Part shown: positions 5,590 to 38,240 of the stretch, in pieces
Position numbering within the stretch: position 1 is the first letter of the stretch
Layout: each line of letters opens with the position of its first letter
Source: Planctomycetota bacterium
Lineage (GTDB): Bacteria; Planctomycetota; UBA11346
Direction: 5' to 3'
Assembly: GCA_014193115.1 (NCBI GenBank)
Contig: BJHQ01000005.1
Span: 264,598-328,597, forward strand
DNA: 64,000 nt
The notes under the pieces: model-generated
Told to the model about the DNA's origin: nothing
The model's input: only the letters and a program-made list of their open reading frames with translations
Database searches by the model: none
Made by a program: the position numbers and the translations under genes

Positions 5590-5761
5590 GGACATGGCTC
5601 CTTCAACGCGGTTCGGACGGCTCATCCGGCATGAAGTATGAGGCGCGAAGTCAGCAGAGTATTCACCAAAGATCGGGCCGTTGGCTGGAGGATGTTGCCG
5701 GATAGGTGAATAGCATTGTTTTTCGCTCAGCTGAGCGACCTGCGCCACTTTGGCGATCGAT

Positions 5762-6664
5762 TCATGCCCCAGGCGGAGCCGGTTCACCTGATGTGCCAGC
5801 CCCACGCGCCAGGTGGGATCGGCGCTGGCGCAACCAGCGTTTGGGCGGCTGGCCGTGATGCCTGGCAAAGGCGTGGACGAAGCCGGCCATGGTCCGGTAG
5901 CCGCAACGCTGGGCGATGTCGTGCAGATTCAGGGCTGGGTCGGTCTCCAGCAGGTAGGCGGCGTGATCGAGTCGCACGTGGCGGTGGTAAACGGTGGGCG
6001 CCATGCCGTAAGCGCTGCGGAATTGCCGGCGGAGGGTGCGCGGTGGAACACCGACGGTTTGGGCGAGGTGGTTGGCCATTGCCGGGGCCCTCAGATCACG
6101 GCGCATGGACATGGCCGCAGCCCGAGCCGGGCTCGGTTCGCGCGCCAACGGTCCGCCACGTCGCATGGCCACCAACGAGGACAGATAGGCGGTCAGCAGG
6201 CGGTCGAACAAGGGACGCATGGCCAGCCGGCGCTGGAGCACGCCCAGACGGTCCAACGACGGATCGCTGAGATCGCAGGTGGCAGCACAGGCATCACGCA
6301 GGCTGTCGGAATCCGGTAACGGCACGACGATCGGAAGGGCCAATCGGCCCCACGGTGAAGGTCCCGCAACCGGCGCGAAGCCCGCCAGGAAAGCAAGAAA
6401 GTCTGGGATGCCTTCCGAGCGCATCCGGTACATCGGCTGCGGTGGCAGGACCAAGGCGCTGCCGGCCGGCACCACCGCGTCGGTCTCGACCGTGCCCATC
6501 TTCAGGACACCACGGAACACCAGGATGATGGTGAAATGATCCCTGAGTCCGTTGGTGTTGGCGTCCTTCCCCCGGTGCCAGCAGGTCCAACGCGGAACCA
6601 CGGTGGTCTGGGACCAGGCGTCGAGCAGGGCTTCGCCGTCCGTTTGGGACAATATCGTGGCCAT
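5762..6664 (-). CDS. AraC-family transcriptional regulator
   Basis: A 300-residue cytoplasmic DNA-binding protein with an N-terminal cupin-like sensing half (LVFRGVLKMG, VVPAGSALVLPP) and a C-terminal pair of AraC helix-turn-helix motifs at about 195-285. The second motif is recognisable as LNLHDIAQRCGYRTMAGFVHAF. The start at 6664 (MATILSQTDGEALL) is supported by a related fragment at 29692-29764 that shares these first residues but has lost the ATG. The longer in-frame extension upstream overlaps the divergent control region and has no domain character. It is divergent from the large secreted-protein array that begins at 6815/7099 and is therefore its likely local regulator. Confidence 0.85.
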   Translation of the reverse strand: MATILSQTDGEALLDAWSQTTVVPRWTCWHRGKDANTNGLRDHFTIILVFRGVLKMGTVETDAVVPAGSALVLPPQPMYRMRSEGIPDFLAFLAGFAPVAGPSPWGRLALPIVVPLPDSDSLRDACAATCDLSDPSLDRLGVLQRRLAMRPLFDRLLTAYLSSLVAMRRGGPLAREPSPARAAAMSMRRDLRAPAMANHLAQTVGVPPRTLRRQFRSAYGMAPTVYHRHVRLDHAAYLLETDPALNLHDIAQRCGYRTMAGFVHAFARHHGQPPKRWLRQRRSHLARGAGTSGEPAPPGA

Positions 6665-6814
6665 TGCAGACAACCCTGGACCGGTGCAGAGGAGTACAAG
6701 CACCATGCCTCGTCTCCACTGGTCGCATGCCGGCAGGCGAGCCGCACCCGAGGACCTCGGAAACGCCGTCGTTGCCAACGGCCGTCTCTCGCGCCAACAC
6801 AAGGCCAAAAAAAC
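6665..6814. promoter_or_regulatory. Divergent control region between the AraC gene and the secreted-protein array
   Basis: A 150-bp intergenic region between the minus-strand AraC start and the plus-strand array. The part from 6665 to 6750 is repeated in diverged form at 29765-29860, upstream of the GH10 gene. Shared blocks include TTGCAGACAAC just beside the AraC start and GGAGTACAAG about 35 nt further on. Conservation of non-coding sequence in two places that both precede glycan genes suggests an operator or promoter. No single consensus site can be fixed by eye. Confidence 0.45.
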
Positions 6815-10100: not shown

Positions 10101-10485
10101 CAGCGGCAGTCTGGCCACCGACGTGCGCTGGATCGGCTTCATGGACAACAACGCCAGCGATGAGGCCAAGACCAAGGAATGGAAGACCGGCACCCTGGAT
10201 TGGCTGGCCTATTGGAAACTCGGCGGCCCCGGCACCGGACGCGGCAACGAATACGAACCCGGCTTCCGGCCCCTGCCTTGGCCCGAGCACACCAGGATCC
10301 CCGGCAAGGACGACAAGTCCACCGGCCAGCTCGAATATAGCACCACGTCAAAGCCAGTGACCCCAGGAACCTACCGGATCGTCTTCGCCAGCCGACGCAT
10401 CGGCGATCTGGTCGCCGGCACGGCCACGGTGGAAACACCGGATGGCAAAAAGCAGGTCAGCCAGTGTTTCGGCAGTGTCGAATGA
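7099..10485 (+). CDS. Large secreted protein of unknown family, divergent type I member
   Basis: 1128 residues. The start has GGAGG 6 nt upstream and overlaps the relic's stop as ATGA. A signal peptide covers about residues 1-23. A beta-rich N-terminal region reaches about residue 350. A fibronectin-III-like segment follows (FIYAPWLPLSATAGAVKYRI, from about 358). A helical region of about 455-800 looks like an (alpha/alpha) toroid, with LQQPSGSW near residue 582. The C-terminal beta module runs from about 810 to the end and finishes in a PDGK motif and SQCFGSVE. It aligns with the genes at 10526, 14858, 26140 and 34746 but lacks their conserved PYHYN block and has a different N-terminal region. 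No described enzyme family was recognised. The toroid and the neighbours suggest a glycan-active protein. Confidence 0.75.
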   Translation: MKTTLALILTTGILTCLSPLAAADLPQVDRSKPFHIDLWMGVPSKDALAKIGIDGSKNKLPSDPSSGWTFPWFIGAVQVGTEIRQPYALPYESWYTPHNQLQENDGNCPYAFFNFRQAKEDLQAFSCTITDAKISGNARVDLGGTQALSVAWEGTISGNSIRGKATMSLAEDRVLERPLVGVLRPTEPLDLRNAVYQIRFKGQVLVFEVRDGKAGQGSGRPWDPIGRPVAFGRLLPVDASQLTVTALPPEVRGVSVALAGIVQVDGKPLEIPTTVVLANGLAVGQATRGKMPGVEVQAYPLTDPVAARWRDWMGAIHAEGKPVDPALVQQAQDEAATIPALPAPSPATTFTHQHLEGRFIYAPWLPLSATAGAVKYRIELTPSHPPHSKPLVLEVAAAQSVDLRPVWAGMAPGNYALAITALDAGGAAIGTAQRSKLIKKVPFGSHPLTVIPDPIAMDLALRFPRYLADHQYAFHTLFREIDAAGENAVISKTIASICHSPWHLLTRWGTPAEQVRGRVLADYFTKVLQWDADQPLGIQQGYKAMYFGAAQDWGRAVLDDFAATKAEDRLALVRTAFDRLYRLQQPSGSWALMWDRTPWPKWSGAFTMWNTAWLDHNGAAYALPFGRYRNLSGDHRYLDAELKAVRWVLRNSLRTGYWETQAQQGDSNYNRPTAHTMALDFLLYLLEQAPADQADSVLAEDIMRYLEDQFITWDRVPAVSGGTMTDNGVLRLAIVSLLLHQRTGKPMHLAKAEALFNAYMINRDPVSGLTDMRWNRYMSEVDDPVYALRYVELRRQVLAEPTSSAVLGTTPLTLTLDRAAAGSERVRLHLDSRDGKVVQAIATTPTWQTLDIPFTTVSRRHQQDGETLFHAVDASGLKVGPHGIEGSVSVALAAPGGTPVPTVFNLTAAPGQRTLVGTWSQGTATGRVAGEGLRPSVAKPKHLHLQIAQAVAGGESWQNWALLRTNFQDGTATGAVICNTNAGWRATTTACDLRLGTDGTISGSLATDVRWIGFMDNNASDEAKTKEWKTGTLDWLAYWKLGGPGTGRGNEYEPGFRPLPWPEHTRIPGKDDKSTGQLEYSTTSKPVTPGTYRIVFASRRIGDLVAGTATVETPDGKKQVSQCFGSVE

Positions 10486-10525
10486 AACTTCCTGCAACCG
10501 ATGATCTACGGAGAAACAACAAACC

Positions 10526-13500: not shown

Positions 13501-13996
13501 GGCTGGCGCGGTACTGCCTGCGGTCGGCACGGCGACCGCCGCCACTTTCATCAATCCCAATGCCGGCTGGACCGCCCAGTCGACCGTGAGCGCGTGCTCC
13601 CTGAATGACGCGGATTTCTCCATGACCATGGATGCCGAGGTGACCTGGCAGGGCGTCGCGGAACTGGAGTACGTCAAGGGTGAATTGCCGAAGGCAACCG
13701 CCAACTATAAAACCACACCGGAATCCGCGCAGGCGCTGCTGGCCAATTGGGAGATTCCCGGCAAGGGATTTACCCTCGAATTCCCACTGCAACCAACCAA
13801 AGGGGATTGGGATCCGGCCAAGCCGGTGGCGTACACCACCACCTGGAAACCAGTCACTGCAGGCAAATACCGACTGAAATGTGATGGCAAACGCCTGGGC
13901 CATATTCTGTATGGCACGGCGATCGTCACCGGACCAGACGGCAAGGAAACTGCGCGGCAGTTTCTGGGTGATGTCGAATCAATCGTAAAACCGTGA
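10526..13996 (+). CDS. Large secreted protein of unknown family, type I
   Basis: 1156 residues with a signal peptide (about 1-23). The N-terminal beta region contains GGYIEGGKVTGAYAP and CPYGPR. A fibronectin-III-like segment begins near 366 (SSFIYAPWFDFETVPGAVKY). The toroid-like region spans about 470-826 and carries HLYLTEAV, KTPYHYN, LQQPSGSW (about 601), NQIEYVLYVLRHAP and DPEWIVRW. The C-terminal module from about 837 has LIDGVDRVVLDLAI and TPTWDGPG and ends PDGKETARQFLGDVES. The invariant Tyr/His of PYHYN, and the Asp/Glu/Gln residues in the QETGRN, NQIEY and RRIEDLF blocks, are candidates for ligand or catalytic contact. This is inference, since no characterised homolog is known to me. 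It follows the 7099 gene after 40 nt and precedes the GH42 fragment by 22 nt, so it is probably in one transcript with them. Confidence 0.75.
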   Translation: MTKSIHLVLLAGLLVGIHSLSAAETPLDTSKPIRFDIQLGPAQFPAGKPKAGAFQPAVLGGYIEGGKVTGAYAPNMTAVYAAGQSPDDNYWDLCPYGPRAPIEGEAAWSSRIREVSASIGPDGFHGTWSVSFGKGDPAKSPAITPELKIRIKAHAGVVGYVGTYEGTVGDAAVQGPCVVRARNVAAGMIDPANAFYQIIGGGFRVFVEVRAGKPVQAWAVANGVGNQGWVYRRPDAPAAATRLSPADATVLTIAIADEGLAGTAATLHGTITIAPSTTLKLNEVVVSGAGKMRVSGKDSTVEAVRSYPLNDPQMARCLDLLKETHRGTKPVPEALLAQVRQESVRDDVQPAPSEAMRYTHRLWKSSSFIYAPWFDFETVPGAVKYRFAIHTSNVHNQLVEPPVISFEAASPRASLAPIWDKMPVADGPRAFLSLKVTGLDAAGKPVGEPQSRGIQRRSPFNPEMIVTPDAKVLMELALRQPRFLFDQYHSHLYLTEAVRAAGNGVQPLGYGPSHWHNTQQWLAMEETDPGRRIQQLRLLDTFNKQRLLDVNGAFKTPYHYNAVVSGVVQETGRNYLNALDIQFDAEVVDRLRLWLRYFGRLQQPSGSWCISERAALGCSGGYSLWGSRHLENTSAPWLPFMARLRRFDDQIETRSLARAIEERASSWVRNNTLRTGFGEQMHQQTDPTDMAHSAQNQIEYVLYVLRHAPPSQRDLVMASDLMRRIEDLFITWDALPLTGGGAFTFGPSLPAVEALCLLELYTLDGDPALLAKSEALAASYLQRADPWNGSGADPMTGGFSLSYNRFLQETDDPEWIVRWVQLHRALTKAPPAAIPERHLTLTCDRLIDGVDRVVLDLAIADGKITQALARTPTWDGPGANFHQPGRLHTRPGKKLFHTVDATGLAITPDGISGQVMLTLHDPQGGEARRLTVEVTAKRQHVRGWLGTWKQGPSGGRVEGRTVADAPATGAQQIFVQVHEALAGGEAWQTWSLAGAVLPAVGTATAATFINPNAGWTAQSTVSACSLNDADFSMTMDAEVTWQGVAELEYVKGELPKATANYKTTPESAQALLANWEIPGKGFTLEFPLQPTKGDWDPAKPVAYTTTWKPVTAGKYRLKCDGKRLGHILYGTAIVTGPDGKETARQFLGDVESIVKP

Positions 13997-14018: not shown

Positions 14019-14822
14019 ATGACCAAATTCACCCATTTCAATCTTGGTCGGGAGGCGCCTGATCAGCAACGTCCGCTGTGGGAACGCGGGGTCGGGGTGG
14101 ATGTACTCGGACGGCACGATGATCGGATCACGTATCGGTTGCTTGTACTGCCCATGTTGTTCCTCATTGAACCAGCCGTTGCGGCGCGGGTAGGTGCGTA
14201 TGCGGAAAATGGTGGCACGGTGTTGGCGACCTGGTTGACCGGCATCGTGGACGAGAACAACCTGTGCCATCCTGGTTGGCCAGGTGGCGGCCCGCGCGAA
14301 TTATTTGGGATCTGGGCGGAGGAAATCGATGTGCTCCACGAAAGCGACCGGCAGGAAATTCACTTCAAGCCCGATACTTCGTTGAACCTGACCGGCCGGC
14401 ATCGCGTCCGAGCTTACGCCGATCTTCAGCATCTTGAAGGCGCAACGGCAATAGCAGAATATGGAAGCGATTTCTATGCCGGAAGACCTGCCTTGACCTG
14501 TCATCGCGTCGGTCGGGGCGAAGCCTGGTATCTCGCCGCCGAACTCGACCACGTCGGACTCCATGCCGTGGTTGGCGCATTGGCCAAACGAACCGGGATC
14601 CGCCAACTCCTGCCCACGCCGCATCCCGGTCTCACGGTTCAATCGCGTACCGACGGCAAGACCGAATGGCTCTTCGTCCTGAACTTCTCGGGTCAAACCC
14701 ATTCCGTGGACCCGGGACCAGTGACCGATCAGGAAACCGATGCCACCATACATGAACCTGTGCTGGTCACAGGATGGGGATCCAAAGTGGTATTTCGGAA
14801 AGCGAGGAATGCACTGTCATGA
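14019..14822 (+). CDS. Orphan C-terminal part of a GH42 beta-galactosidase (trimerisation domain)
   Basis: 267 residues matching the part of family GH42 beta-galactosidases that follows the catalytic barrel. The motifs YRLLVLPMLFLI, GGTVLATWLTGIVDENN and ELFGIWAEEIDVL belong to the Rossmann-like trimerisation domain, and the remainder to the small C-terminal beta domain. Full GH42 enzymes are about 650-700 residues with two catalytic Glu residues in the barrel. Both are absent here, and only 22 nt separate it from the preceding gene. It has a good ribosome site (GGGGAGGAG before ATG) and its stop overlaps an ATG of the next frame as ATGA. It is either a decayed remnant kept in frame or a stand-alone binding or assembly domain. 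It is unlikely to be an active galactosidase. Confidence 0.75.
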   Translation: MTKFTHFNLGREAPDQQRPLWERGVGVDVLGRHDDRITYRLLVLPMLFLIEPAVAARVGAYAENGGTVLATWLTGIVDENNLCHPGWPGGGPRELFGIWAEEIDVLHESDRQEIHFKPDTSLNLTGRHRVRAYADLQHLEGATAIAEYGSDFYAGRPALTCHRVGRGEAWYLAAELDHVGLHAVVGALAKRTGIRQLLPTPHPGLTVQSRTDGKTEWLFVLNFSGQTHSVDPGPVTDQETDATIHEPVLVTGWGSKVVFRKARNALS

Positions 14823-14857
14823 ATGCACAACCAGGGATCAAGAAAGAGAGCGTGGAC

Positions 14858-17800
14858 ATGCGCCGCGAACTCATCCTGCTGGCGTATCTCGCCAGCGCAT
14901 CCTTCACCCTGATGGCGGCAGATGCCCTCCCGCTAGGAAAACTTCCGCCGCCGAAACTGGATTATTCCAAACCGATACAGTTTGATGTGCAATTTTCCCC
15001 TGTGGTATTTCCTCAAGATACCCCGAAAGAGGTTCGCGGTAATCCATTGCCGGCCATCATTGGCGGCTACCTGGAGGGTGGGAAGGTGACCGGCGCCTAT
15101 GCGCCGGATATCAGCCACATCTATCATGCGGGTGCAAGTCCGGATCAGTTCGAGTGGGATCTGTGTCCGTATGGGCCCCGTCATGGTACAGGATCGCGTG
15201 ATGCTCAACGTGAAAAATTCACCAGTTCCACGCTGCGGATGACTGATGCTCAGGTTGAGGGAACCTGGCGTTTCAACTACATTTCCACCAAGGATTCCGG
15301 AAAAACAACCTCGCCAGTCTATGAAATCAGCATCCAGGCCACCGCGACCAGTTGCGGGTATGCCGGAACCTATACCGGAAAAATAGCGGATGTGCCGGTC
15401 AGTGGCGATTGCGTGCTGGCCGCTCATAACATCCCGGCGGGGGTGATCGATCCAGCCAATGCCATTTACCAGATTCTTGGCGGGAACTACGCTGTCTTGG
15501 TCGAAGTCCAAGCGGGAAAAGCAGTCCAGGCCTGGGCGGTTGCGGGGGTGGTTAGTGCTGAACGAACCTGGAGGTATCGTTACCCCGGTGATGCGGTGGC
15601 CGCCACGTTCCTGTTTCCTGCCGATGCATCCGGCATGAGCCTGAAAATCACCGATGAGGGTCTGGATGGCAAGGCGGTCACGCTGGGTGGTCAGATTACC
15701 ATCACGCCGGAACCCAAAACCGCTTCAAGGATGTTTGGACCAACGACCCTCGATCTCAGCGGAACGGTCATCAGCGGCGCAGGAAAAATACGAGGGAATG
15801 GCAAGGAATCCAAGGTGGAACAGGCCAGAAGTTATCCGCTCACCGATCCGTTGATGGCCCGCAGTCTGGCGCTGCTCAAGGAAACTCATCGCGGTAGCAA
15901 ACCAACCGCTCCAGAACTGCTGGCGCAGGCCGATCAGGAATCGCTGCGCACGGATGTCCAACCGGGTCCGAGCGAACAGACCCGTTACATGCAGCGCCTT
16001 TGGAATGGTGGCACGAGTGGGGAATATAACTACCATCGTTCCTACATTTATGCACCCTGGCTCGATCTTGAGGTTGTACCCAGCGCCGTCCGTTATCGGT
16101 TTGACTTGATCGACGCTTCGCATGAAAATACCGGAATCCGGCCCTTGATCGATTTCTTCGAAGCGTCCTCTCCACGGGTCTCGCTTCTTCCGATCTGGGC
16201 CAAGGTGCCCAAGAACCTTGGTCGGAACCCCATCAGTTCACTTCGTGTCACTGCTTTCGATGCTGATGGTAAAGCGCTGGGAAAACCGCAGGAATGCGGT
16301 ATCACTCGTAGGCCGGCTTTTTCCCAGGATCAGATCGTGACCCCTGATCCCAAGGTGCTGATGGAACTAGCGATGCGCCAACCATACCATCTGACCACGC
16401 GATATTATTCACACCTGTATCTGACCGAGGCGGTACTGGCAGCCAAGAACGGGGTGAAGCCCCTGAGTTATGAATCTCCGCATCACCATTTGCCACAGAC
16501 CCTGATGGTCGAGCATGAGGATAATCCGGTCCAACGGGATCAGTACATGCGGTTGTTGAATACCTATGTGGATCGACGAATGAAGGAACAGAATGAACCC
16601 TACTTCAAGCTGCCCTACCACTACAACGTCGGCCTGAATGGCGTGGTCCAGGAAACCGGGCGAAATTTCCTGAACGTCCTGGATCTTCAGCCGAATACCG
16701 AATTATTGGATCGTATGCGTCTGTGGACTCGCTTTTTTTCGCGCATGCAGCAACCCAGTGGTTCATGGACGATTTCCTATCGAGGTATGTTGGGGTGCAC
16801 TGGCGGCTATTCCCTTGGTGGCAGTTTTTTCCTGGATCAACCGAGTACACCCTGGTTGCCATTTCTGGCCCGAATGCGCCAGCATGACAATGATCCGACC
16901 TTTCGCGCCATGGAACGCGCCATCGAGGAAAAGGCGGCGTCCTGGGTTTTGAACAATACGCTTCGTACTGGTTTTTCGGAAAACGTGCAGCAGCAGACCC
17001 TCAGCAACGACAATGGCCACACGGTGCCCAACCAGATTGAGTATGTGTTATATGTGCTGCGCCACGCACCGCCCGTCCAGCGCGATGTCGTCATGGCCAC
17101 CGATCTCATGCGTCGGATCGAGGATCTCTTCATTTCCTGGGAGGCGCACGCGAAAACGAGAGGAGGGAATTTCACCTTCGAGCGTTCGCTCTATCCGATC
17201 GAAGCCCTTTGCTTTCTGGAATTGTATGCGCTGACCGGTGATCCGTTGATGCGGGCCAAGAGTGAAGCCCTGGTCAGCACCTACTTGCAAGACAGCGATC
17301 CCTGGAATGGCAGCAATGGTCTTTCCGGATTGACGAGTAAAATGAATTATGACCGATTCATCCAAGAAACTGACGATCCCGACTGGATCGTGCGTTGGGT
17401 GCATCGTGACCGTGAACTTCGCGCCACCCCGCCCTCTGCCGCACCCGAGCAACACCTGACGGTAACCCTGGATCAACTGATCGATGGCATCGACCGGGTT
17501 GTGCTGGATTTGGCCCTGGCCGATGGCAGGGTGACCCAGGCCCTGGCGCGCACCCCAACCTGGGATGGACCTGGAATCAATTTCTATCAACCCGGCACTG
17601 TCCACACCCGTCCTGGCAAGGCTTTCTTCCACAGCGTGGATGCATCCGGCCTGAAGCTCAGCGCCGAAGGACTCAGTGGTACGGTGAAACTCACCCTAAA
17701 ACCGCCCCAAAGCGATACCTTGATCTCCATGATCGCTGAAATCAGCGCCAAACGCCACGCTCTACGCGGCTGGCGTGGAACCTGGAAACAAGATAATAAT

Positions 17801-18418
17801 CAGGGACGGGTCGAAGGCGTCACCCTGGTCGATGCGGTTGTCAAAGGCCCGCAACAGATTTTTGTCAAAGTCAACGACGCCCTGAGCGGCGGCGAAGCCT
17901 GGCAAAACTGGACTCTGGCCGGCGCGGTCCTCCCAAGCACAGGAAGTGCAACCGGCGCGACCCTCATCAACCCCAATGCCGGTTGGACCGCTCAAGCCAC
18001 GGGTCTCAAGGATTGCATCCTGAACGGCGACACCTTTACCATGTCCATGGATGGCGAAGTCACCTGGCACGGTGTCGCCGAGCGGATCCCAAAGGACGAA
18101 ACACAGACAACCTACACCTACAAGACCACCCCAGAATCCAATCAGGCGCTCTTGGCCCATTGGGAACTTTCCATCAACAAAAATAACAGCTCCCTGTACT
18201 GCCCATTCCTCAAACCAGGGACCGGAGATTTATCCGCAGACGGAAAGCTGATCTACCAGACCGATTCCAAACCCGTCACCCCCGGCAAATACCGATTGAA
18301 ACTAGATGGCAAACGCCTGGGCAATATTCTATTTGGCATGGCCACCATCACCGGCCCGGACGGCAGGGAATCCGTCCGACAGTTTCTGGGCGATGTGGAA
18401 AGCATCGGTAAACCATGA
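14858..18418 (+). CDS. Large secreted protein of unknown family, type I
   Basis: 1186 residues from the ATG at 14858, chosen for the AAGAGAG site upstream and the immediate signal peptide (MRRELILLAYLASASFTLMA). An upstream ATG at 14819 overlaps the previous stop and is a possible alternative start. Modules follow the type I order: an N-terminal beta region with GGYLEGGKVTGAYAPDIS and YTGKIADVPVSGDCVLAA; a fibronectin-III-like segment near 394; a toroid-like region with LPYHYN, MQQPSGSW (about 630), NTLRTGFSENVQQQT, QIEYVLYVLRHAP and ETDDPDWIVRW; and a C-terminal module from about 865 ending PDGRESVRQFLGDVES. The gene at 26140 is its closest relative, and long DNA stretches of the C-terminal module are nearly the same in both. 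Its stop overlaps an in-frame ATG at 18415. Confidence 0.75.
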   Translation: MRRELILLAYLASASFTLMAADALPLGKLPPPKLDYSKPIQFDVQFSPVVFPQDTPKEVRGNPLPAIIGGYLEGGKVTGAYAPDISHIYHAGASPDQFEWDLCPYGPRHGTGSRDAQREKFTSSTLRMTDAQVEGTWRFNYISTKDSGKTTSPVYEISIQATATSCGYAGTYTGKIADVPVSGDCVLAAHNIPAGVIDPANAIYQILGGNYAVLVEVQAGKAVQAWAVAGVVSAERTWRYRYPGDAVAATFLFPADASGMSLKITDEGLDGKAVTLGGQITITPEPKTASRMFGPTTLDLSGTVISGAGKIRGNGKESKVEQARSYPLTDPLMARSLALLKETHRGSKPTAPELLAQADQESLRTDVQPGPSEQTRYMQRLWNGGTSGEYNYHRSYIYAPWLDLEVVPSAVRYRFDLIDASHENTGIRPLIDFFEASSPRVSLLPIWAKVPKNLGRNPISSLRVTAFDADGKALGKPQECGITRRPAFSQDQIVTPDPKVLMELAMRQPYHLTTRYYSHLYLTEAVLAAKNGVKPLSYESPHHHLPQTLMVEHEDNPVQRDQYMRLLNTYVDRRMKEQNEPYFKLPYHYNVGLNGVVQETGRNFLNVLDLQPNTELLDRMRLWTRFFSRMQQPSGSWTISYRGMLGCTGGYSLGGSFFLDQPSTPWLPFLARMRQHDNDPTFRAMERAIEEKAASWVLNNTLRTGFSENVQQQTLSNDNGHTVPNQIEYVLYVLRHAPPVQRDVVMATDLMRRIEDLFISWEAHAKTRGGNFTFERSLYPIEALCFLELYALTGDPLMRAKSEALVSTYLQDSDPWNGSNGLSGLTSKMNYDRFIQETDDPDWIVRWVHRDRELRATPPSAAPEQHLTVTLDQLIDGIDRVVLDLALADGRVTQALARTPTWDGPGINFYQPGTVHTRPGKAFFHSVDASGLKLSAEGLSGTVKLTLKPPQSDTLISMIAEISAKRHALRGWRGTWKQDNNQGRVEGVTLVDAVVKGPQQIFVKVNDALSGGEAWQNWTLAGAVLPSTGSATGATLINPNAGWTAQATGLKDCILNGDTFTMSMDGEVTWHGVAERIPKDETQTTYTYKTTPESNQALLAHWELSINKNNSSLYCPFLKPGTGDLSADGKLIYQTDSKPVTPGKYRLKLDGKRLGNILFGMATITGPDGRESVRQFLGDVESIGKP

Positions 18419-25708: not shown

Positions 25709-26104
25709 ATGCGCAACCATCGTATCAGCGATGACAATCCAATGATTCACTGTTTACACCCGCATCGGTCACGATCCCTGGTGGTGGACTGCAAGCCTCT
25801 GACTCTGGATCCGGTCGAGATAAGACCGAATGGCTGGGTGGCCAAGGAGACCGAGGACAACAAAACTTGGTATGGCCTTGGTGGCATTCGTACCCGTGCC
25901 TATCACCACACCGGTCCGGTCGCCAAACACTGGAAGGAATGGATGACGGCGACCTATACGGGTACGCAGACGCTTTCGTCCGAACTGAGGCAACAGGTGG
26001 CCCGGGAGACTGCGGAACTTCGGCGACGTGCTCGCGGGGACGGTTGCCGTGAAAGCCCGGATGGCAAAGAGGTCGTGTGCCAGTGTTTCGGAAGCCTTGA
26101 ATGA
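25709..26104 (+). pseudogene. Internally deleted and frameshifted relic of a 7099-like array gene
   Basis: An open frame of 131 codons with family similarity only in pieces. The stretch VAKHWKEWMTATYTG and its flanks match residues around 270-345 of the gene at 7099 (VAARWRDWMGAIHAEG). The end, SPDGKEVVCQCFGSLE, matches that gene's last 16 residues. The intervening 750 or so residues are missing. Just before the end, a second frame at 26017-26060 reads RNFGDVLAGTVAVKA, matching RRIGDLVAGTATVET of the 7099 protein, so a frameshift lies near 26055. Deletion plus frameshift show that this is a pseudogene. Its stop overlaps the in-frame ATG at 26101 as ATGA. Confidence 0.75.
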
Positions 26105-26139
26105 ATAATCCGTCAATGATCACCACCAAGGAGCTTCTC

Positions 26140-29100
26140 ATGATCAAACCCATCATCTTCCTGACTGGCCTGCTCGGCGCATTCCTGCCCCTGATGGCGG
26201 CAGACTCCGCACCGCTGGGAAAACTCCCGCCACCAAAACTGGATTATTCCAAACCGATCCAGTTTGATGTGCAATTCGCTCCTGCGACCTTCCCCAAGGA
26301 TGCCCCGAAGGAGGTCCGCAACAATCCCATGCCGGCCATTATCGGCGGGTATCTGGAAGGTGGGAAAGTTACCGGTGCCTATGCGCCGGTTATGAGTCAT
26401 GTTTATCATGCTGGTTTAAGTCCGGATCAATACGAGTGGGATCTGTGTCCCTATGGTCCCCGTCCCAGTGAAGGGCAACCAGAAAAATTCAACAGTGCCA
26501 CGCTGCGGTTGACGGATACTCAGGTCGAGGGTACCTGGAGTTTTCACTACATTTCCGCCAAGGATCCCAGCCAAACAACTTCACCTGTCTATGAACTCAG
26601 CATCAAGGCCACCGCAAATGGTTGCGGATATGCCGGAACTTATACAGGGAAAATCGCGGATGTGCCGGTCAGTGGCGACTGCGTTCTGGCCGCCCACAAC
26701 ATTCCGGCGGGGATGATCGATCCGGCCAATGCTTTTTACCAGATTATTGGTGGTAATTATGATGTTATTGTTGAAGTCCAAGCGGGCAAAGCGGTCCAGG
26801 CCTGGGCGGTTGCAGGGGTGATTGGTGCCCACGGGTGGGTGTATCGTCAAACGAATGATTCGGTGGCTGCCACCTTTCTTTTTCCTGCCGATGCGTCGGG
26901 CATGACCCTGATAATCACCGACGAGGGTCTGGATGGCAAAGCCGTCACGCTGGGCGGTCAAATCACCATCACGCCGGATCCGAAAATTGCGTCGAAGATG
27001 TTCGGACCAATGTCGCTTGATCTCAGCGGTACCGTCATCAGTGGCGCAGGAAAATTGCGTGGGAAAGCCAAAGAATCCAAGATCGTGCAGGCCAGAAATT
27101 ATCCGCTCACCGATTCCCTGATGGCCCGGAGCCTGGCCCTTCTCAAGGAAAGCTTTCGTGGCTGCAAACCAACCGCGCCAGAACTACTGGCCCAGGCCGA
27201 ACAGGAATCGCTGCGCACGGATGTTCAACCGGCCCCGAGCGAACAGACCCGTTATATGCAACGTCTTTGGAAGTATGGCGCAGATTCCTACTCTTGTTCC
27301 TACATCTATGCTCCCTGGCTCGATCTTGATGTTGTCCCCAACGCTGTCCGGTATCGATTCGAATTGATCGACGCAACCATCCAGAACCGGCCAGTGATCG
27401 ACTCATTCGAGGCGTCCTCGCCCCGGGCCTCGCTCAGTCCTTTCTGGGCAAAGGTGCCCAAGAACCCTGGAAAGGTTTTTGATCGCAACCCCCTCAGTTC
27501 GCTGCGCGTCACCGCTCTGGATGCTGAAGGGAAAGCGCTGGGAAAACCGCAGGAATGCGGTATCACCCGCCGGCCGGCTTTTGCCCAGGATCAGATCGTG
27601 ACCCCTGATCCCAAGGTGCTGATGGAACTGGCGCTGCGCCAAGCATACCATTTGACGAATCGTTATTATTCCCACCTGTATCTGACCGAGGCGGTATTGG
27701 CGGCCAAGAATGGGGTAAAACCACTGGAGTATTACTCTCCGCATCACCATTATCCACAGACTTTGATGGTTCAGCAGGAGGAAAATCCAGTTCGCCGGGA
27801 TCAGTACATGCGGCTGTTGAACACCTATGTAGAACAACGGAACAAGGAGCAATTCGGTTTCTTCAAGACGCCGTACCACTACAACGTTGCCCTGGGTGGC
27901 GTGGCCCAGGAAACCGGACGCAATCTTCTGAACGTCCTGGATCTGCAACCAAACTCCGAAATACTGGATCGCCTTCGCCTGTGGACACGTTTCTTTGCTC
28001 GCCTGCAGCAACCCAGCGGTTCGTGGACGATTTCGCATCGGGACATGCTCGGGTGCATCGGCGCTTATGCCCTCAGTGGATCTTTCTTTTTGGATCAACC
28101 GAGCACGCCCTGGTTGCCATTTCTGGCCCGTCTGCGCCAGCACGACCACGATCCGACCTTTCGCGCTCTGGAGCGTGGTCTTGAGGAAAAAGCCGTGTCC
28201 TGGGTCTGTAACAACATGCTGCGCACCGGTTTTTCGGAGAACGTACAACAGCAGACCCTCAGCAACGATAACGGTCACACGGCAGTCAATCAAATCGAAT
28301 ATGCATTGTACGTACTGCGCCATGCCCCGCCCGCCCAACGTGATGTGGTCATGGCCACCGATCTCATGCGCCGGATCGAGGATCTCTTCATCACCTGGGA
28401 TACACATCCTCTGACCAGGGGAATGAATTTAACCTTTGACCGTTCGTTGTATGCGGTTGAAGCCCTTTGCTTCCTGGAATTGTATGCCTTGACCGGTGAT
28501 CAGTTGATGCGGACCAAGAGTGAGGCCCTGGTCAGCACCTATTTGCAGGACAGCGATCCGTGGCACGGTAGCAAAGGTGGATTCTTGAGCAAAACCGGCT
28601 ATGATCGATTCCTACAGGAAACAGACGATCCCGACTGGATCGTGCGCTGGGTGGAGCGTGACCGCGAACTGCGCACCACACCGATTGCTGCCGTGCCCGA
28701 AAAACACCTGACGGTAACCCTGGATCAATTGATCGATGGAATCGACCGGGTGGTGATCGATCTGGCCCTGTCTGATGGCAAGGTGACCCAGGCACTGGCG
28801 CGCACCCCGACCTGGGATGGTCCCGGGATCAATTTTTATCAACCCGGCACCGTCCACACCCGTCTTGGCAAGGCTTTCTATCACAGCGTGGACGCGTCCG
28901 GTCTGAAACTGAGCGCCGAAGGGCTCAGTGGCCTGGTGAAACTTACCCTGAAACCGCCCCAAGGCGAGCAATTGATCTCTCTGACAGCTGAAATCAGCGC
29001 CAAGCGACATGCCCTGCGCGGCTGGCGCGGAACCTGGAAACAGGACAATAATCAGGGCCGGGTCGAAGGCGTCACCCTGGTCGATGCCGTTGTCAAAGGT

Positions 29101-29685
29101 CCGCAGCAGATCTTCGTCAAAGTGAACGAGGCCCTGAGCGGTGGAGAAGCCTGGCAGAACTGGGCCTTGGCCGGGGCAGTCCTCTCAAGCACAGGAAGTG
29201 CAACCGGCGCGACCCTCATCAATCCGAACGCTGGCTGGACCGCCCAGTCCACGGGCCTGAATGACTGCGCTCTCAACGGTGATACGTTCACCATGACCCT
29301 GGATAGCGAGGTCACCTGGCATGGCGTCGCCGAGCGCACCCCGCCAGACAACTACCAACGGTCTCTTTACAAGACCACCCCGGAATCCAAGGAGGCGCTC
29401 TTGGCGCACTGGGAGATCCCCGTCAATGGAACTCCTCCATACAACAAGGGAGAAGTTTCTCTGAGTTGCCGATTCCTCAAAGCCGGAACCGGTGATTTCC
29501 CCGCCGACGGAAAACTGATCTACCAGACCGATTCCAAACCCATCGTCCCCGGAAAATACCGACTGAAACTTGAGGGCAAACGCCTGGGCAACATTCTCTA
29601 CGGTAAGGCCACCATCACCGGACCAGACGGCAAGGAAACTGCCCGGCAGTTTCTGGGTGATGTGGAGGCGGTCGGAAAATCTTGA
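26140..29685 (+). CDS. Large secreted protein of unknown family, type I
   Basis: 1181 residues. The start at 26140 has AAGGAG 6 nt upstream and a signal peptide (MIKPIIFLTGLLGAFLPLMA). The upstream ATG at 26101 overlaps the relic's stop. Modules are the same as in the 14858 gene, its nearest paralog: an N-terminal beta region with GGYLEGGKVTGAYAPVM, a fibronectin-III-like segment near 386, and a toroid-like region carrying KTPYHYN, LQQPSGSW (about 622), NNMLRTGFSENVQQQT and ETDDPDWIVRW. The C-terminal module starts near 855, with LIDGIDRVVIDLAL, and ends PDGKETARQFLGDVEA. This is the last member of the first array, and 7 nt after its stop the AraC-derived scar begins. Confidence 0.75.
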   Translation: MIKPIIFLTGLLGAFLPLMAADSAPLGKLPPPKLDYSKPIQFDVQFAPATFPKDAPKEVRNNPMPAIIGGYLEGGKVTGAYAPVMSHVYHAGLSPDQYEWDLCPYGPRPSEGQPEKFNSATLRLTDTQVEGTWSFHYISAKDPSQTTSPVYELSIKATANGCGYAGTYTGKIADVPVSGDCVLAAHNIPAGMIDPANAFYQIIGGNYDVIVEVQAGKAVQAWAVAGVIGAHGWVYRQTNDSVAATFLFPADASGMTLIITDEGLDGKAVTLGGQITITPDPKIASKMFGPMSLDLSGTVISGAGKLRGKAKESKIVQARNYPLTDSLMARSLALLKESFRGCKPTAPELLAQAEQESLRTDVQPAPSEQTRYMQRLWKYGADSYSCSYIYAPWLDLDVVPNAVRYRFELIDATIQNRPVIDSFEASSPRASLSPFWAKVPKNPGKVFDRNPLSSLRVTALDAEGKALGKPQECGITRRPAFAQDQIVTPDPKVLMELALRQAYHLTNRYYSHLYLTEAVLAAKNGVKPLEYYSPHHHYPQTLMVQQEENPVRRDQYMRLLNTYVEQRNKEQFGFFKTPYHYNVALGGVAQETGRNLLNVLDLQPNSEILDRLRLWTRFFARLQQPSGSWTISHRDMLGCIGAYALSGSFFLDQPSTPWLPFLARLRQHDHDPTFRALERGLEEKAVSWVCNNMLRTGFSENVQQQTLSNDNGHTAVNQIEYALYVLRHAPPAQRDVVMATDLMRRIEDLFITWDTHPLTRGMNLTFDRSLYAVEALCFLELYALTGDQLMRTKSEALVSTYLQDSDPWHGSKGGFLSKTGYDRFLQETDDPDWIVRWVERDRELRTTPIAAVPEKHLTVTLDQLIDGIDRVVIDLALSDGKVTQALARTPTWDGPGINFYQPGTVHTRLGKAFYHSVDASGLKLSAEGLSGLVKLTLKPPQGEQLISLTAEISAKRHALRGWRGTWKQDNNQGRVEGVTLVDAVVKGPQQIFVKVNEALSGGEAWQNWALAGAVLSSTGSATGATLINPNAGWTAQSTGLNDCALNGDTFTMTLDSEVTWHGVAERTPPDNYQRSLYKTTPESKEALLAHWEIPVNGTPPYNKGEVSLSCRFLKAGTGDFPADGKLIYQTDSKPIVPGKYRLKLEGKRLGNILYGKATITGPDGKETARQFLGDVEAVGKS

Positions 29686-29691
29686 TCGCCA

Positions 29692-29764
29692 GCGCGGTAC
29701 GAGGGTGGCCTGGGATCAAGCGACGCCAGGCTTCGTCGTCCATTTGGGACAATAGAGTGGCCGT
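29692..29764 (-). pseudogene. 5' fragment of a duplicated AraC regulator gene
   Basis: The segment aligns with 6592-6664, the 5' end of the AraC gene. On the minus strand it would read TATLLSQMDDEA against MATILSQTDGEA, but the start codon is changed from ATG to ACG and only about 24 codons remain before the junction with the array gene that ends at 29685. It is a non-functional scar. The matching non-coding part continues at 29765-29860. Confidence 0.75.
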
Positions 29765-29860
29765 TGCAGACAACACTGGCCAGGTGCACGGGAGTACAAG
29801 GATTATGCCCGTCTCAACTGGTCGATTGTCGGCACCGCTCCGGCAGGTGAGCCGCCCCCG
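29765..29860. promoter_or_regulatory. Diverged copy of the AraC/array control region, upstream of the GH10 gene
   Basis: Aligns with 6665-6750. Shared blocks include TTGCAGACAAC, GGAGTACAAG and CGGCAGGTGAGCCGC, with one insertion of about 13 nt. It ends 131 nt before the GH10 start, so it could act as a promoter or operator for GH10 and the genes beyond. The remaining intergenic stretch 29861-29991 holds no gene. AGGATAGG precedes the GH10 ATG and serves as its ribosome site. Confidence 0.45.
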
Positions 29861-29991
29861 ATCTGCTGCGAACGAAGGAGAATGAATCCCTTGGACGCTC
29901 TCGGTACGCTTGCGATGCGCTCAATACCACCGTCCTCCGCCATCCTGGCTGGGGCGAATCGCGATCACCTCCGCTTTAGGATAGGTGCCCC

Positions 29992-31386
29992 ATGACCACC
30001 ACCCCGATCATCCTTGAGAACGGCCAAGAATGGAAAATCCTCGAATCAGCAACTGCTTTTTCCACGGATAAATACAAAGATCTGATTGAGGACAGCCATG
30101 CCCGCATCGATCAGCGGCGGCGGCGCTGGTTGGCCCTGCGGCTGAGCGACCGGGACGGCAAAGCCCTTGCCCATCGGACCGTGCGCCTGCGGCAGTTGCG
30201 CAGTGATTTTCTCTGGGGATTTTGCGGTGCCGGAGTGATGGACGCCTGTCACGAACCGCAAAGACTCGAAAATGATGTGGTCAGACGCAACCTGCTGCAC
30301 CTGGGTCGCCTGTTCAACGCGGTGAATCTGTTGAACTATTGGCAGGAGTGGTCTTGGAAGGAGACGCAAAAAGGCGAAGAGTTCATGGGGTACCAGAACT
30401 ACGACACCCTTGACCGGGCGGTGCAGTGGGCCTGTGGCCATGGTCTGGTGGCCAAGTGCCATCCGCTGTGGTGGGGCGTCCCCAAGGCCATCCCCGCTTG
30501 GATGGACCGTTTTGATGCGAAGAAACGCTCCATGTTCCGTGAGGTCCGTCTGCGTCAGATCGTCAACCGGTTCAAGGGACGCGTCAGTGTTTATGACGCA
30601 GTCAACGAGGCCATCTGGGAACCGACCCTGGCCAAGACCGCCACCCGCCACTGGCCTCACAACACACCGATCCCCGAGTTGGCACAGGACCTCGCCGAAG
30701 TCATGGCCATCGTTCGTGATGAGGATCCAAATGCGACGATGGTCATCAATGATTACGGCCAATGGGTCGGCGATACGACCAAGATTCCGGTTGCCTGCAG
30801 CGATGGCACCTTTATCAGCAATCAGGACCAGGCCCAGCGTTACCGGGACCTGATGATGGCCCTCAAGGATCTGGGTGCTGCCCCCGATGCCATGGGTTTT
30901 CAGGGATTTTCAGCCATCGGGAAACTGGAACAGCACGTGGCCACGTATGATTTCCTGGCCAAGACCGGCCTGCCCATCCACGTCACCGAATTCCATGCCG
31001 GAGGAGCCCATGCTGCAAACTTGGTGAAGGCCGGTGTGCCCCGACCTGAAATCATCGACCGGATCGCCGAATATGCCGATGCCTCGATGGTTTTGGCTTT
31101 CGCCCATCCGGCTCTTGAGGCATTCTTCTTCTGGTATGACCAGGACTATCTGTTCGATGGACGCGGTCTGCCCAGCGCCTGGTACAACCGGATCTACCAG
31201 CGCATCCACAAAGACTGGACCACCGATGTGGTTATGACCACTGACGCGGATGGACTCCTGCGTACTCGCGCCTTTACCGGCAGTTATCGCCTGTCCTTCG
31301 AAGAGCCAGGCGTATCGCCCACCGGAATCAATCTCAGCATCCCGGCCGCCAGTCGCGGGGAAATCGCGATGCAGGTCATCATATGA
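29992..31386 (+). CDS. GH10 endo-beta-1,4-xylanase-like enzyme
   Basis: 464 residues of family GH10, which hydrolyses beta-1,4-xylan or xylo-oligosaccharides by a retaining mechanism. The TIM-barrel signatures are clear: KCHPLWWG, then VYDAVNEAIW with the predicted acid/base Glu at about residue 206, NDYG in the following strand, and PIHVTEFHAGG with the predicted nucleophile Glu at about residue 333. An N-terminal stretch of about 60 residues (SDRDGKALAHRTVRLRQL) resembles the small beta domain seen before some planctomycetal GH10 barrels. There is no signal peptide, so a cytoplasmic location on imported oligosaccharides is likely. It follows the AraC-derived scar and precedes a secreted PQQ propeller. 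Confidence 0.9.
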   Translation: MTTTPIILENGQEWKILESATAFSTDKYKDLIEDSHARIDQRRRRWLALRLSDRDGKALAHRTVRLRQLRSDFLWGFCGAGVMDACHEPQRLENDVVRRNLLHLGRLFNAVNLLNYWQEWSWKETQKGEEFMGYQNYDTLDRAVQWACGHGLVAKCHPLWWGVPKAIPAWMDRFDAKKRSMFREVRLRQIVNRFKGRVSVYDAVNEAIWEPTLAKTATRHWPHNTPIPELAQDLAEVMAIVRDEDPNATMVINDYGQWVGDTTKIPVACSDGTFISNQDQAQRYRDLMMALKDLGAAPDAMGFQGFSAIGKLEQHVATYDFLAKTGLPIHVTEFHAGGAHAANLVKAGVPRPEIIDRIAEYADASMVLAFAHPALEAFFFWYDQDYLFDGRGLPSAWYNRIYQRIHKDWTTDVVMTTDADGLLRTRAFTGSYRLSFEEPGVSPTGINLSIPAASRGEIAMQVII

Positions 31387-34500: not shown

Positions 34501-34612
34501 TCCGATCATCGACCTCGATGCCGGCCTGATGCGCGACGGCCTGATCGCCACCGACGGCCGGCTGTATGCGGCCTGCTCCGATGGTTCCGTGCGCTGCTTC
34601 CATGATCGCTGA
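31538..34612 (+). CDS. Secreted PQQ-type beta-propeller with degenerate methyltransferase-like head
   Basis: 1024 residues from the ATG at 31538, which has AGGAG 9 nt upstream. In-frame ATGs at 31475 and 31511 are alternatives. A hydrophobic segment (LAVFLAVLSVAVAADPALA) at about 30-48 is the export signal. Residues of about 50-150 follow the order of a class I methyltransferase fold (SSGRFVVHALVVDEAARASL, IVQSDALPRLPYGDRIANLV, RVLAPGGVLRW) but without the glycine-rich SAM loop. The rest contains propeller blades such as VAAFDGATGAEIRRFALG and LDLDTGAVRWIRPI, with an Ala/Pro-rich linker near 34400-34450. It is the diverged cousin of the two tandem genes at 38237 and 41374. The function is unknown, with surface binding or scaffolding the likely role. 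Confidence 0.7.
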   Translation: MCCQPVTDRLASFPPAPSWPHGAASVWGRRLAVFLAVLSVAVAADPALAGLTIDRGVALSVPGSKTTIELASSGRFVVHALVVDEAARASLAAQLAAAESSAGIVQSDALPRLPYGDRIANLVVCDADALGGKAPTQAEVQRVLAPGGVLRWHQGGTWTTIAASATASGIWPSFDGGRGSMASTDDPLITLPLAARWLDGPVIGQTPAGVDIWCSVVNGGRYVQVTNIDEANVHAPARQRPLWIVARDASNGTRLWRQRYPTDLSAQKALPWGGYIAASPRCIFAFAGSDQVAAFDGATGAEIRRFALGGPRRIPGHLVWQGDRLLAQTTAGWSAFAEDGTPAWSIVTKDLWPGWGAAMITHLADHQVLVLQEGDRMRAFNLADGTERWSVAMSAPGDRGVRTWQLQALSGGSVAVRTQGELTAYSLVDGLKRWTVAATGNLPFTGRPDTYAWNGGFARAGKKFDAVTGADLGGAPNASVDRCTLPLLTSTFHISSHSSHVGSADPKQRLPGYAALRLSCNSANAVGSGLIFGIASDCMCNASHLRGITAHGSAPAALIQADPQTPRPTVRGAGKPAPAASSAPAAASGKEWPMFRQNIQRSAGLDAAPLRSPAQLWSVAASPSLVPGPVAVSRAAGGQAGIRGLTCAEGLVCVADAGHQRVLGLDVGDGRRRWAVQLGAGLDTPPTIHAGRVLFGALDGWVWCLAATDGALIWRTRLAPAEDFLPAYGQVASRWPVVGAVTVADGLVLASVGRSTAVDGGVLLAALDLDTGAVRWIRPINPVGGRESRSFNDVLIAGGRGLRFLGQPATPVPAPAAQEKESPSDTLVPAVEGLANFVRNDQDAALHGYTWAPMLYGGIRGRLLAWRDQRIFGFARHSYAWINNSTTQLKDPLAVFMAPADLVSSAASNLPAKNAPADYGPPTAWSRPLGATSDRLQACLVVGDTAWAAWTVAPAASGAADAAAAAAPAAVRETGRIASWKLADGTPGPIIDLDAGLMRDGLIATDGRLYAACSDGSVRCFHDR

Positions 34613-34745
34613 ACCAGACCAGGCGAGCATCCAAAGTATTCACCAGGCATGTCAGTGCCTGCATCAGCATCACCGCTTGACCTCGGAGCCGCCATCGGAG
34701 CGGCCAGAGTTCCAACATGCCAAGCACAATCACCAGAAGATAACC

Positions 34746-37700
34746 ATGATTAGGTCCATCCAGATTATCCTGCTGACGACTCTCGTCGGCCTATCATGCA
34801 CATTGGCGGCTGCAGACGCCGCCAGCACTCCGCCGTCGCCAAGACTGGATTTGACCAAACCGGTTATCTTCGATGTCCAATTCGCTCCGGCGACGATTCC
34901 AAAGGATGCTCCGAACGAGGTTCGCAGCAATCCCATGCCGCTGATCATCGGCGGCTATCTGGAAGGCGGCAAGGTCACCGGGGCCTATGCACCGGATATC
35001 AGTTATGTGTATTTTCCTGGCGGAAGTCCGGATGAGGTCGCATGGGCGCTGTATCCCTATGGCCCATGTCGGGAAACGGGGAATCGTGGTGGACGTTATG
35101 CACAACAAGAGAAGTTCGCTCGTGCATCCCTGCGATTGAACGGGAATCAGGCTGAGGGGGCCTGGACCTTTCGTTTCGTATCCAGCAAGGATCCCAGCAA
35201 GGCGCTCTCTCCAGATTATGCCCTGAGTATCAAGGCTGTCGTGAAGGGCAGCGGATTTGCCGGAACCTATTCGGGGAAGATTGCTGACTATCCGGTCAGC
35301 GGCGAGTGCGTCCTGTTCGCCCGCAATGTTCCGGCGGGGATGATCGATCCCCTCAATGCGTTCTACCAGATCATCGCCAGCAATTACCGAGTAGTGGTGG
35401 AAGTCCGGGCGGGCAAGGCGGTCCAGGCCCTGGCAATAGCCAGCGGCAATGACGCACATGCCACCGCTGTGCATCCCGCCGATGCGTCAGGCATGACATT
35501 CACGCCGATGGATCAGGGCCTCGACGGGACTGCGGTGACGCTGGGCGGACAGATCATAGTCACGCCATCGGTTTCAGCAGGTGCCAAGGCGATCCCCCCG
35601 GTCAGCATTTCCCTCGACGGCACGGTCATCAGTGGCGCCGGGAAGCTTCAGGTGAAATCCACGGTCAATTCCGCGCGCAATTACCCGCTGGGCGAACCCT
35701 TGATGGCCAAGAGCTTCGATGTGCTGAAGGCGAGTTTCCGCGGGGCAAAACCAGTTTCACCAGAACTTTTGGCGCAGGCCGAGGCGGAGTCTCAGTGGAA
35801 CGTTCAGCCGGCCCCAAGCGAGTCGACGCGTTATTCCCATCGTCTGTGGCGCACCACGAGTTTCATCTATGCCCCTTGGCTGGATTTCGATGCGGTGCCC
35901 AATGCCGTGCGCTACCGCTATACCATCGATCCGGCAGAACCGAGCAAGGACGTGAAAACCGCCAGTTTCGAGTCCCTGTCGCCCAAGGCGTCGCTCGCTC
36001 CGGTGTGGAAGGATCTTCCCACCAATACGGGGCTCAGACTGCAAGTGACCGCCCTTGATGCCCAAGGTGCGCCCATCGGCAAACCCCAGGAAAAGCTGAT
36101 CACGAAACGCGCCCCCTTCGGTCCTGAGATGGCGGTGACCCCTGAGGCCAGGGTGCTCATGGATCTGGCCATGCGCCAACCCTATCACCTGACCGAACGC
36201 CTCCATTCCCACCTGTACCTGACCGAGGCGGTGATCGCCGCAAATACCTCGGTCAAACCGATGGAGTATCACAATGCCCATTTTCATTTCTCACAGCAAC
36301 TGATGGCTGAACAGGAGCAGGATCAGGCGGGGCGGGATCAGTACCTGCGTCTCCTGGACACCTTCGTTCAGAGACGCCTGGAGGAAACCTTCGGGGAATT
36401 CAAGATCCCGTACCACTACAATGTGGTCCTGAGCGGCGTGGTGCAGGAAAACGGCCGCAATTTCCTCAATGCCTATGAGCAACTCCCGAATGCAACCGTA
36501 CTGGATCGTTTCCGGCTTTGGGTGCGTTACTTCGCCCGTTTGCAGCAACCGAGCGGTTCTTGGACCATTTCCTCGCGTGCGGCATTCAGTAGTACCGGCG
36601 GGTTCAGTCTGTGGGGAAACCGTTTTCTGGATGCAACCAGCATTCCGTGGCCGCCGTTTCTCGCGCGCCTGCGCCAGATCGACTCTGATCCTGGCACGCG
36701 TGCGCTCGAACGTGCCATCGAGGAACGTGCCATCGCCTGGTTTTCCAACAACACCTTGCGGACGGGTTTCGGAGAATTGCTGCACCAGCAGACCGATCCT
36801 GGTGATATGCAGCACTCCGCCGGGAACCAGATTGAATACGCCTTATATGTTCTGCTCCACGCGCCGCCTGCGCAGCGCGATGTGCTCATGGCCTCGGACC
36901 TCATGCGGCGCATCGAGGATCTCTTCATTTCTTGGCATGCTGTCCCCACCACCGGGGGTTGGAATCTGACCTTTGGCAATTCTCTGTATGCGGTCGAAGC
37001 CCTGTGCCTCATGGAATTATACGCCCTCACCGGCGATCCGCTGCTGCGCGCCAAGTCGGAGGCCCTGGCAACCGCCTATTTGCAACGGAATGATTCGTGG
37101 CATGGCACCAATCCCAATTCCAACGCCTATGTCGGTGGCGATGCCCTCGGCTATAATCGCTATATCCAAGAGCAGGATGATCCCGACTGGATCGTCCGCT
37201 GGGTGAAACGGGACCGTGAACTGCGCGCCTCACCGCCAGTCGCGATTGCTGAAAAGCATATCTCGTTGTCGTTGGATCGGCTGATCGATCAGACCGATCG
37301 GGTGGTTTTGGATCTCCAGGTGGCGGATGGCCAAGTGACCCAGGCCCTGGCGCGCACGCCGACCTGGGACGGCCCAGGAATCAATTTTTACCAGCCTGGC
37401 AGGCTTCACACCAGGTCCGGCAAGGCACTGTTTCATGGTGTTGATGCCTCGGCCTTGAAACTCAGCGCCCAGGGGCTGAGCGGCACGGTCAAACTTGCCC
37501 TCAAACCGCCACAGGGCGAAGAGATCCGCAATATCACCGTGGAAATCAACGCCAAACGCCACGCGCAACGCGCCTGGCGCGGCGCCTGGAAACTCGCCCA
37601 GGAAAATGGTCGGACCGAAGGCATCACCCTGCTTGATCCGGAGATCACCGGATCGCAGCAGGTCTTTGTCAAAGTCCACGAAGCCCTGGACGGTGGCGAA

Positions 37701-38240
37701 GCCTGGCAGACCTGGGCCTTGGCCGGTACCGTCATCCCGAAAAACGGCAGTGCGAGCGGTGCCATGCTGGTCAATCCCAATGCCGGTTGGACCGCCCAGA
37801 CTTCGGTGAGCGACTGTGAACTGAAATCCGAATCCTTCGCCATGACCATGAACACCGAAGTCGCCTGGCACGGTGTGGCAGAACGATCCAAGCCCGATGC
37901 CTGGCAGTGTTACACCTACAAGACCACTCCTGAAGCGAAGGAGGCGCTGCTGGGGTATTGGCAGATCCCCATCACCCGAGGCGGCGGCGGCGAAAAGAAC
38001 GGTGAGTTATACCTCAATCTCGGCTTCCCCCTGCGCCCGGAAATCGGGGATCTGCCACCAGATGGAAAACTGACCTATGAAACCAGCTGGAAACCGGTCA
38101 CCCCGGGAAAATACCTGTTGAAGCTCACAGGCCAGCGCCTGGGCAACATCCTGTACGGCACAGCCACCGTGACCGGGCCGGACGGAAAAAACGTTGTTCG
38201 TCAGTTCCTTGGCGATGCCGAAAGCATCGGAAAGCCGTGA
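34746..38240 (+). CDS. Large secreted protein of unknown family, type I
   Basis: 1164 residues. The ATG at 34746 is chosen because the signal peptide begins there (MIRSIQIILLTTLVGLSCTL). The open frame extends upstream without domain character. Type I order: an N-terminal beta region with GGYLEGGKVTGAYAPDIS, a fibronectin-III-like segment near 372 (SFIYAPWLDFDAVPNAVRYR), a toroid-like region with KIPYHYN, LQQPSGSW (about 598), NTLRTGFGELLHQQT and DDPDWIVRWVKRDREL, then the C-terminal module from about 837 ending PDGKNVVRQFLGDAES. It lies 5 kb from the other members, between PQQ propeller genes, and its stop overlaps the GTG start of the next gene (GTGA), which links the two families in one transcript. 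Confidence 0.75.
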   Translation: MIRSIQIILLTTLVGLSCTLAAADAASTPPSPRLDLTKPVIFDVQFAPATIPKDAPNEVRSNPMPLIIGGYLEGGKVTGAYAPDISYVYFPGGSPDEVAWALYPYGPCRETGNRGGRYAQQEKFARASLRLNGNQAEGAWTFRFVSSKDPSKALSPDYALSIKAVVKGSGFAGTYSGKIADYPVSGECVLFARNVPAGMIDPLNAFYQIIASNYRVVVEVRAGKAVQALAIASGNDAHATAVHPADASGMTFTPMDQGLDGTAVTLGGQIIVTPSVSAGAKAIPPVSISLDGTVISGAGKLQVKSTVNSARNYPLGEPLMAKSFDVLKASFRGAKPVSPELLAQAEAESQWNVQPAPSESTRYSHRLWRTTSFIYAPWLDFDAVPNAVRYRYTIDPAEPSKDVKTASFESLSPKASLAPVWKDLPTNTGLRLQVTALDAQGAPIGKPQEKLITKRAPFGPEMAVTPEARVLMDLAMRQPYHLTERLHSHLYLTEAVIAANTSVKPMEYHNAHFHFSQQLMAEQEQDQAGRDQYLRLLDTFVQRRLEETFGEFKIPYHYNVVLSGVVQENGRNFLNAYEQLPNATVLDRFRLWVRYFARLQQPSGSWTISSRAAFSSTGGFSLWGNRFLDATSIPWPPFLARLRQIDSDPGTRALERAIEERAIAWFSNNTLRTGFGELLHQQTDPGDMQHSAGNQIEYALYVLLHAPPAQRDVLMASDLMRRIEDLFISWHAVPTTGGWNLTFGNSLYAVEALCLMELYALTGDPLLRAKSEALATAYLQRNDSWHGTNPNSNAYVGGDALGYNRYIQEQDDPDWIVRWVKRDRELRASPPVAIAEKHISLSLDRLIDQTDRVVLDLQVADGQVTQALARTPTWDGPGINFYQPGRLHTRSGKALFHGVDASALKLSAQGLSGTVKLALKPPQGEEIRNITVEINAKRHAQRAWRGAWKLAQENGRTEGITLLDPEITGSQQVFVKVHEALDGGEAWQTWALAGTVIPKNGSASGAMLVNPNAGWTAQTSVSDCELKSESFAMTMNTEVAWHGVAERSKPDAWQCYTYKTTPEAKEALLGYWQIPITRGGGGEKNGELYLNLGFPLRPEIGDLPPDGKLTYETSWKPVTPGKYLLKLTGQRLGNILYGTATVTGPDGKNVVRQFLGDAESIGKP

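Follow-up and report, generated by a model that had tools for sequence, protein, structure and literature searches.

Partial segmental duplication that leaves a pseudogene fragment of a regulator gene behind is part of general bacterial genome evolution, and promoter capture by duplication or rearrangement is known from experimental evolution. Also relevant here is the arrangement in which an AraC-type regulator gene stands divergent from a carbohydrate-degradation operon. The term "promoter capture" occurs, for example, in a passage of PMC8370652. In the window, which is the whole stretch of 64,000 nucleotides of planctomycete DNA that was analysed, a segment in front of a GH10 gene repeats the 5' end and the upstream DNA of an AraC-type gene. 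This scar resembles a partial segmental duplication in its truncated regulator 5' end, its lost start codon, its frameshifts and its breakpoint beside a multicopy gene family. Nothing in it is clearly different from such duplications; it happens to include a divergent upstream region and to precede another gene. With promoter capture it shares the copying of putative control DNA to a place before a different gene, but any promoter, operator or change of expression is putative here. The intact regulator, with its HTH_18 domain, is divergent from a large glycosidase-rich run, as in AraC-type carbohydrate operons, and the same divergent arrangement is found with a relative of the gene at 7099-10485 (g7099) on C19. 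A search of 58 related genomes gave no close relative of this regulator (best match 36%, mainly in the helix-turn-helix part). No paper on such a situation was found in the literature searched. As a phenomenon, the scar is ordinary.

Structure and copy number of the duplicated segment

As seen in Table 1, two copies of the repeat are present in the window. The segment 29689-29862 aligns with 6587-6752 at 76.7% identity over 176 columns with 14 gap positions (blastn, E ~1.3e-31), and the Smith-Waterman score is 149, whereas 300 dinucleotide shuffles averaged 20.8 and never exceeded 30. The preliminary description had placed a repeat of about 170 bp at 29692-29860 and 6592-6750 and judged it by eye to be about 75% identical; both its coordinates and its estimate were accurate, and the pairwise alignment places the identity far above a random level. 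Chance similarity, which these values contradict, is practically inconceivable, and 29689-29862 is a duplicated segment, a paralogous DNA copy. Searches of the 5.25-Mb genome with either copy returned only these 2 copies, the next-best matches having E = 0.2-0.7. Additionally, the repeat was absent from 58 related genomes, with the sole exception of a 27-bp stretch in one distant genome, and a search of phages with the repeat gave no match. With only these copies, both a mobile element and a dispersed repeat were ruled out. Apart from itself, the query 29686-29991 found significant matching in the genome for its bases 4-149 only.

Table 1. Position and character of the two repeat copies and of the features around them
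Feature	Position	Strand	Description
Copy 1 of the repeat	6587..6752		AraC codons 1-26 (6587-6664) and 88 bp of upstream DNA (6665-6752); blastn and Smith-Waterman
Dead AraC 5' remnant, copy 2	29689..29764	-	61/75 aligned bases same as copy 1
Copied non-coding (putative control) DNA, copy 2	29765..29862		71/87 aligned bases same as copy 1; indels of 1 bp and 11 bp
Intact AraC-type regulator gene, 300 aa	5762..6664	-	Pfam HTH_18 PF12833, 73.6 bits against a cut-off of 33.6, residues 200-280
A-family gene, 1194 aa	26101..29685	+	No Pfam match; stop codon abuts the scar
Spacer between copied segment and GH10	29863..29991		129 bp, no relative elsewhere in the genome
GH10 gene	29992..31386	+	Pfam PF00331, 52.3 bits against a cut-off of 22.1; downstream of the scar
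Broken A-family 5' fragment, 95 aa	6815..7102	+	Immediately 3' of the copy-1 control region

The coding part of copy 2 is a disabled, truncated pseudogene fragment of the AraC-type gene. On the minus strand, copy 1 begins at 6664 with ATG GCC ACG ATA TTG TCC, and the corresponding place in copy 2, at 29764, reads ACG GCC ACT CTA TTG TCC, so the change of start codon from ATG to ACG had been read correctly. Two 1-base gaps shift the frame of the remnant, which ends after about 25 of 300 codons. The truncation that had been proposed was likewise verified: copy 2 begins 4 bp past the stop of the upstream A-family gene, and the homology stops at 29689, just past that TGA (29683-29685). Copy 1 has an in-frame TTG 3 codons 5' of the AraC ATG, and in copy 2 a frame of 53 aa that begins at a GTG close by (29776-29615) is still open. 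Therefore, the missing ATG by itself is no proof of non-translation.

Divergence and regulatory sites

The searches of relatives yielded no third copy for a conservation test. With one copy pair, comparison of the coding with the non-coding part is the only internal test, and it is a weak one, as the coding part of copy 1 is itself constrained. Substitution identity between the copies is 81% in the coding and 82% in the non-coding part, with Jukes-Cantor K values of 0.215 and 0.211, respectively. The ratio of the two mismatch rates is 1.02, with low power (95% interval 0.53-1.94). Mismatches in the coding part fall on codon positions 1, 2, and 3 in the numbers 3, 5, and 6, showing little bias, and for clustering of conserved columns no stretch of 20-50 columns exceeded the permutations (p 0.79-1.0). 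Equal divergence and the lack of clustering thus give no sign of selective retention of the control part. In the preliminary description, the non-coding part was said to be kept and to lie upstream of GH10; its location is as described, and its being kept finds no support in the near-equal identities and the unclustered conserved bases. Conservation of the non-coding part beyond that of the dead coding part, by which a functional captured control region would be recognised, was not seen at the low power of this ratio. Were the non-coding part strictly neutral in both copies, less difference would be expected in the coding part, where copy 1 is constrained, so the equality is a weak hint that the non-coding part may be under some constraint, for which the interval is too wide to tell.

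No sigma-70-type promoter match was found in either copy, and this may not be the promoter type of the lineage. A direct repeat, GACAAT-N15-GACAAC, is present in both copies (6648-6674 and 29748-29774) with a spacing of 21 bp, which is familiar from AraC half-sites. Its first GACAA half falls within AraC coding or former coding DNA, and the pair in the two copies is one site by descent. The pattern GACAAYN15GACAAY occurs 7 times in the whole genome, 2 of these being the copies. Direct repeats at 20-22 bp spacing were ordinary in comparison with shuffles (p 0.21 in copy 1 and 0.52 in copy 2), and the best score at this spacing in copy 1 belongs to a repeat other than the GACAA pair. The GACAA repeat, which is the only AraC-like one and scores no better than shuffles, is a putative AraC-type site at best. 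One inverted repeat reached p 0.03, in copy 1 only. The motif search that had been proposed for a shared site thus ended with no significant repeat common to both copies. Also, no Rfam match was found within the window.

Genomic context of the two copies

The PF12833 match of the intact regulator spans profile positions 1-80 of 80, which identifies the C-terminal helix-turn-helix of the AraC/XylS family. Residues 1-199 have no Pfam match; the N-terminal sugar-binding cupin of this family is not present in all members. The same genome also has AraC-type genes next to or in the vicinity of g7099-family genes, on C19 (in divergent orientation, as at this locus) and on C7, so such a regulator and a g7099-type gene apparently form a module that recurs. 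At L046, an AraC-type regulator with a LacI-type Peripla_BP_3 sensor (7383-8516, minus strand) is divergent from a g7099-family gene (8845-12396, plus strand), and this pair is a second such module in the genome. No region resembling the control DNA of either copy was found at the C7, C19, and C2 loci. On the minus strand of the window, a long open reading frame at 2209-5868 has ECF sigma-factor regions 2 and 4 within its N-terminal quarter, and another 960 residues or so are devoid of Pfam matches.

No gap in the co-directional run 7099-46873 is wider than the 306 bp before GH10; most genes of this run overlap or are spaced by less than 50 bp. These gap widths rest on mechanical starts of open reading frames. 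Judging by signal-peptide-like stretches, the genes listed as 31250 and 34566 probably start about 290 and 180 bp inside these frames, in which case gaps of about 130-150 bp would appear before them. A promoter before GH10 would fit this location, the widest gap in a long run of co-directional genes. Relatives of GH10 in other genomes (31-40% identity) were accompanied by no match to other genes of the locus, so they are silent on ancestral gene order.

The run contains four tandem A-family paralogues, 10526-13996, 14774-18418, 26101-29685, and 34566-38240, of about 1150-1220 aa and 54-79% protein identity, and g7099 is a distant fifth member with about 31% identity. A pair of PQQ-type genes in the locus shares 55% identity. 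The A-family genes scanned (10526, 26101, 34566, and 7099) had no Pfam match. The A-family profile found no relative outside the source genome in 294 genomes of the phylum (E<=1e-20), the 7099 protein found none in 23 genomes of the family (E<=1e-5), and contig scans with GH10 and with the A family gave no relative.

Besides the scar, this locus of tandem duplicates contains other broken gene pieces. Within the A-family fragment 6815-7102, positions 6915-7016 are 94% identical to 10617-10718, followed by a short match to 10992-11014. The stop of this fragment overlaps the ATG of 7099. A 131-aa open reading frame at 25709-26104 looks like an internally deleted g7099-type remnant and is closest to the C7 relative (L045), with 52% identity over 82 residues and 88% over the last 17. 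Moreover, the gene at 14019-14822 has only the middle and C-terminal domains of GH42, without the catalytic domain.

For relative dating, the youngest gene pair, 14774/26101, has a dS of 0.69, and the other compared pairs have dS of 0.9-1.8. The divergence of the scar (K ~0.21) is well under the former value, and this indicates that the scar is probably a later, separate event. Provided that the scar is not under constraint in both halves, and the dead coding half makes such constraint unlikely, it is probably younger than the gene duplications and a short event of its own.

Origin of the scar

An ordinary short local duplication is, in our judgement, the likely origin of the scar, with the coding part dead, the copy evenly diverged, and the whole being one of several recombination leftovers. 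A piece of about 170 bp, with the 5' end of AraC and the DNA upstream of it, would have been copied from 6587-6752 into the gap between 26101-29685 and GH10. The homology, the copy number, the break beside the stop codon, the lost reading frame and the even divergence are directly observed. We infer the direction of copying because the intact AraC gene sits at copy 1, and we also infer that the scar postdates the youngest gene duplication. The junction lying exactly between the A-family stop and the AraC fragment would also suit another origin, in which a large tandem duplication of old date, reaching from AraC to the A-family gene, has the scar as its left edge, its second unit having later lost most genes and gained GH10. 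An additional A-family gene (34566-38240) and PQQ-type genes do lie in the second half of the locus. However, that A-family gene is far more diverged (dS ~1.45, identity 60%) than the scar, and nothing 3' of 29862 matches the sequence following copy 1, so such an origin is unlikely.

Against a plain scar stands the fact that the copy sits at the expected location of a promoter. If the copied control region were functional, the regulator would bind both copies and drive the run 7099-29685 as well as the GH10 run. The position of the copy in the widest gap of the run, the GACAA pair kept in both copies, and the AraC-type genes on C19 and C7 are in its favour; the non-coding part, however, has diverged as much as the dead coding part, the direct repeats are non-significant, the inverted repeat is confined to copy 1, and the GACAA pair is shared by descent and lies partly inside the AraC coding sequence. 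Neither copy has a promoter-like match, and the control regions are without similarity to the C7, C19, and C2 loci. A functional control region is therefore doubtful, and a promoter or operator role of copy 2 at GH10 with shared regulation, to which the position of the copy points, may be entertained only tentatively. It is decidedly improbable that the duplicated regulator piece and putative operator split a polysaccharide locus into two co-regulated operons, the dead 5' end being retained in the operator with half-sites in former coding DNA. The scar reading of the preliminary description, a duplication carrying the AraC 5' end and upstream DNA before GH10, is thus well supported, and its further step to a shared regulator gained nothing positive from the sequence.

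Significance

If the copy is inert, the scar is a marker of the instability of tandem glycosidase loci. Should it instead be active, it would give a clean natural example of a regulon that grew through the copying of a control region and not through newly evolved sites, and the switching on of the second half of the locus would then also be explained.
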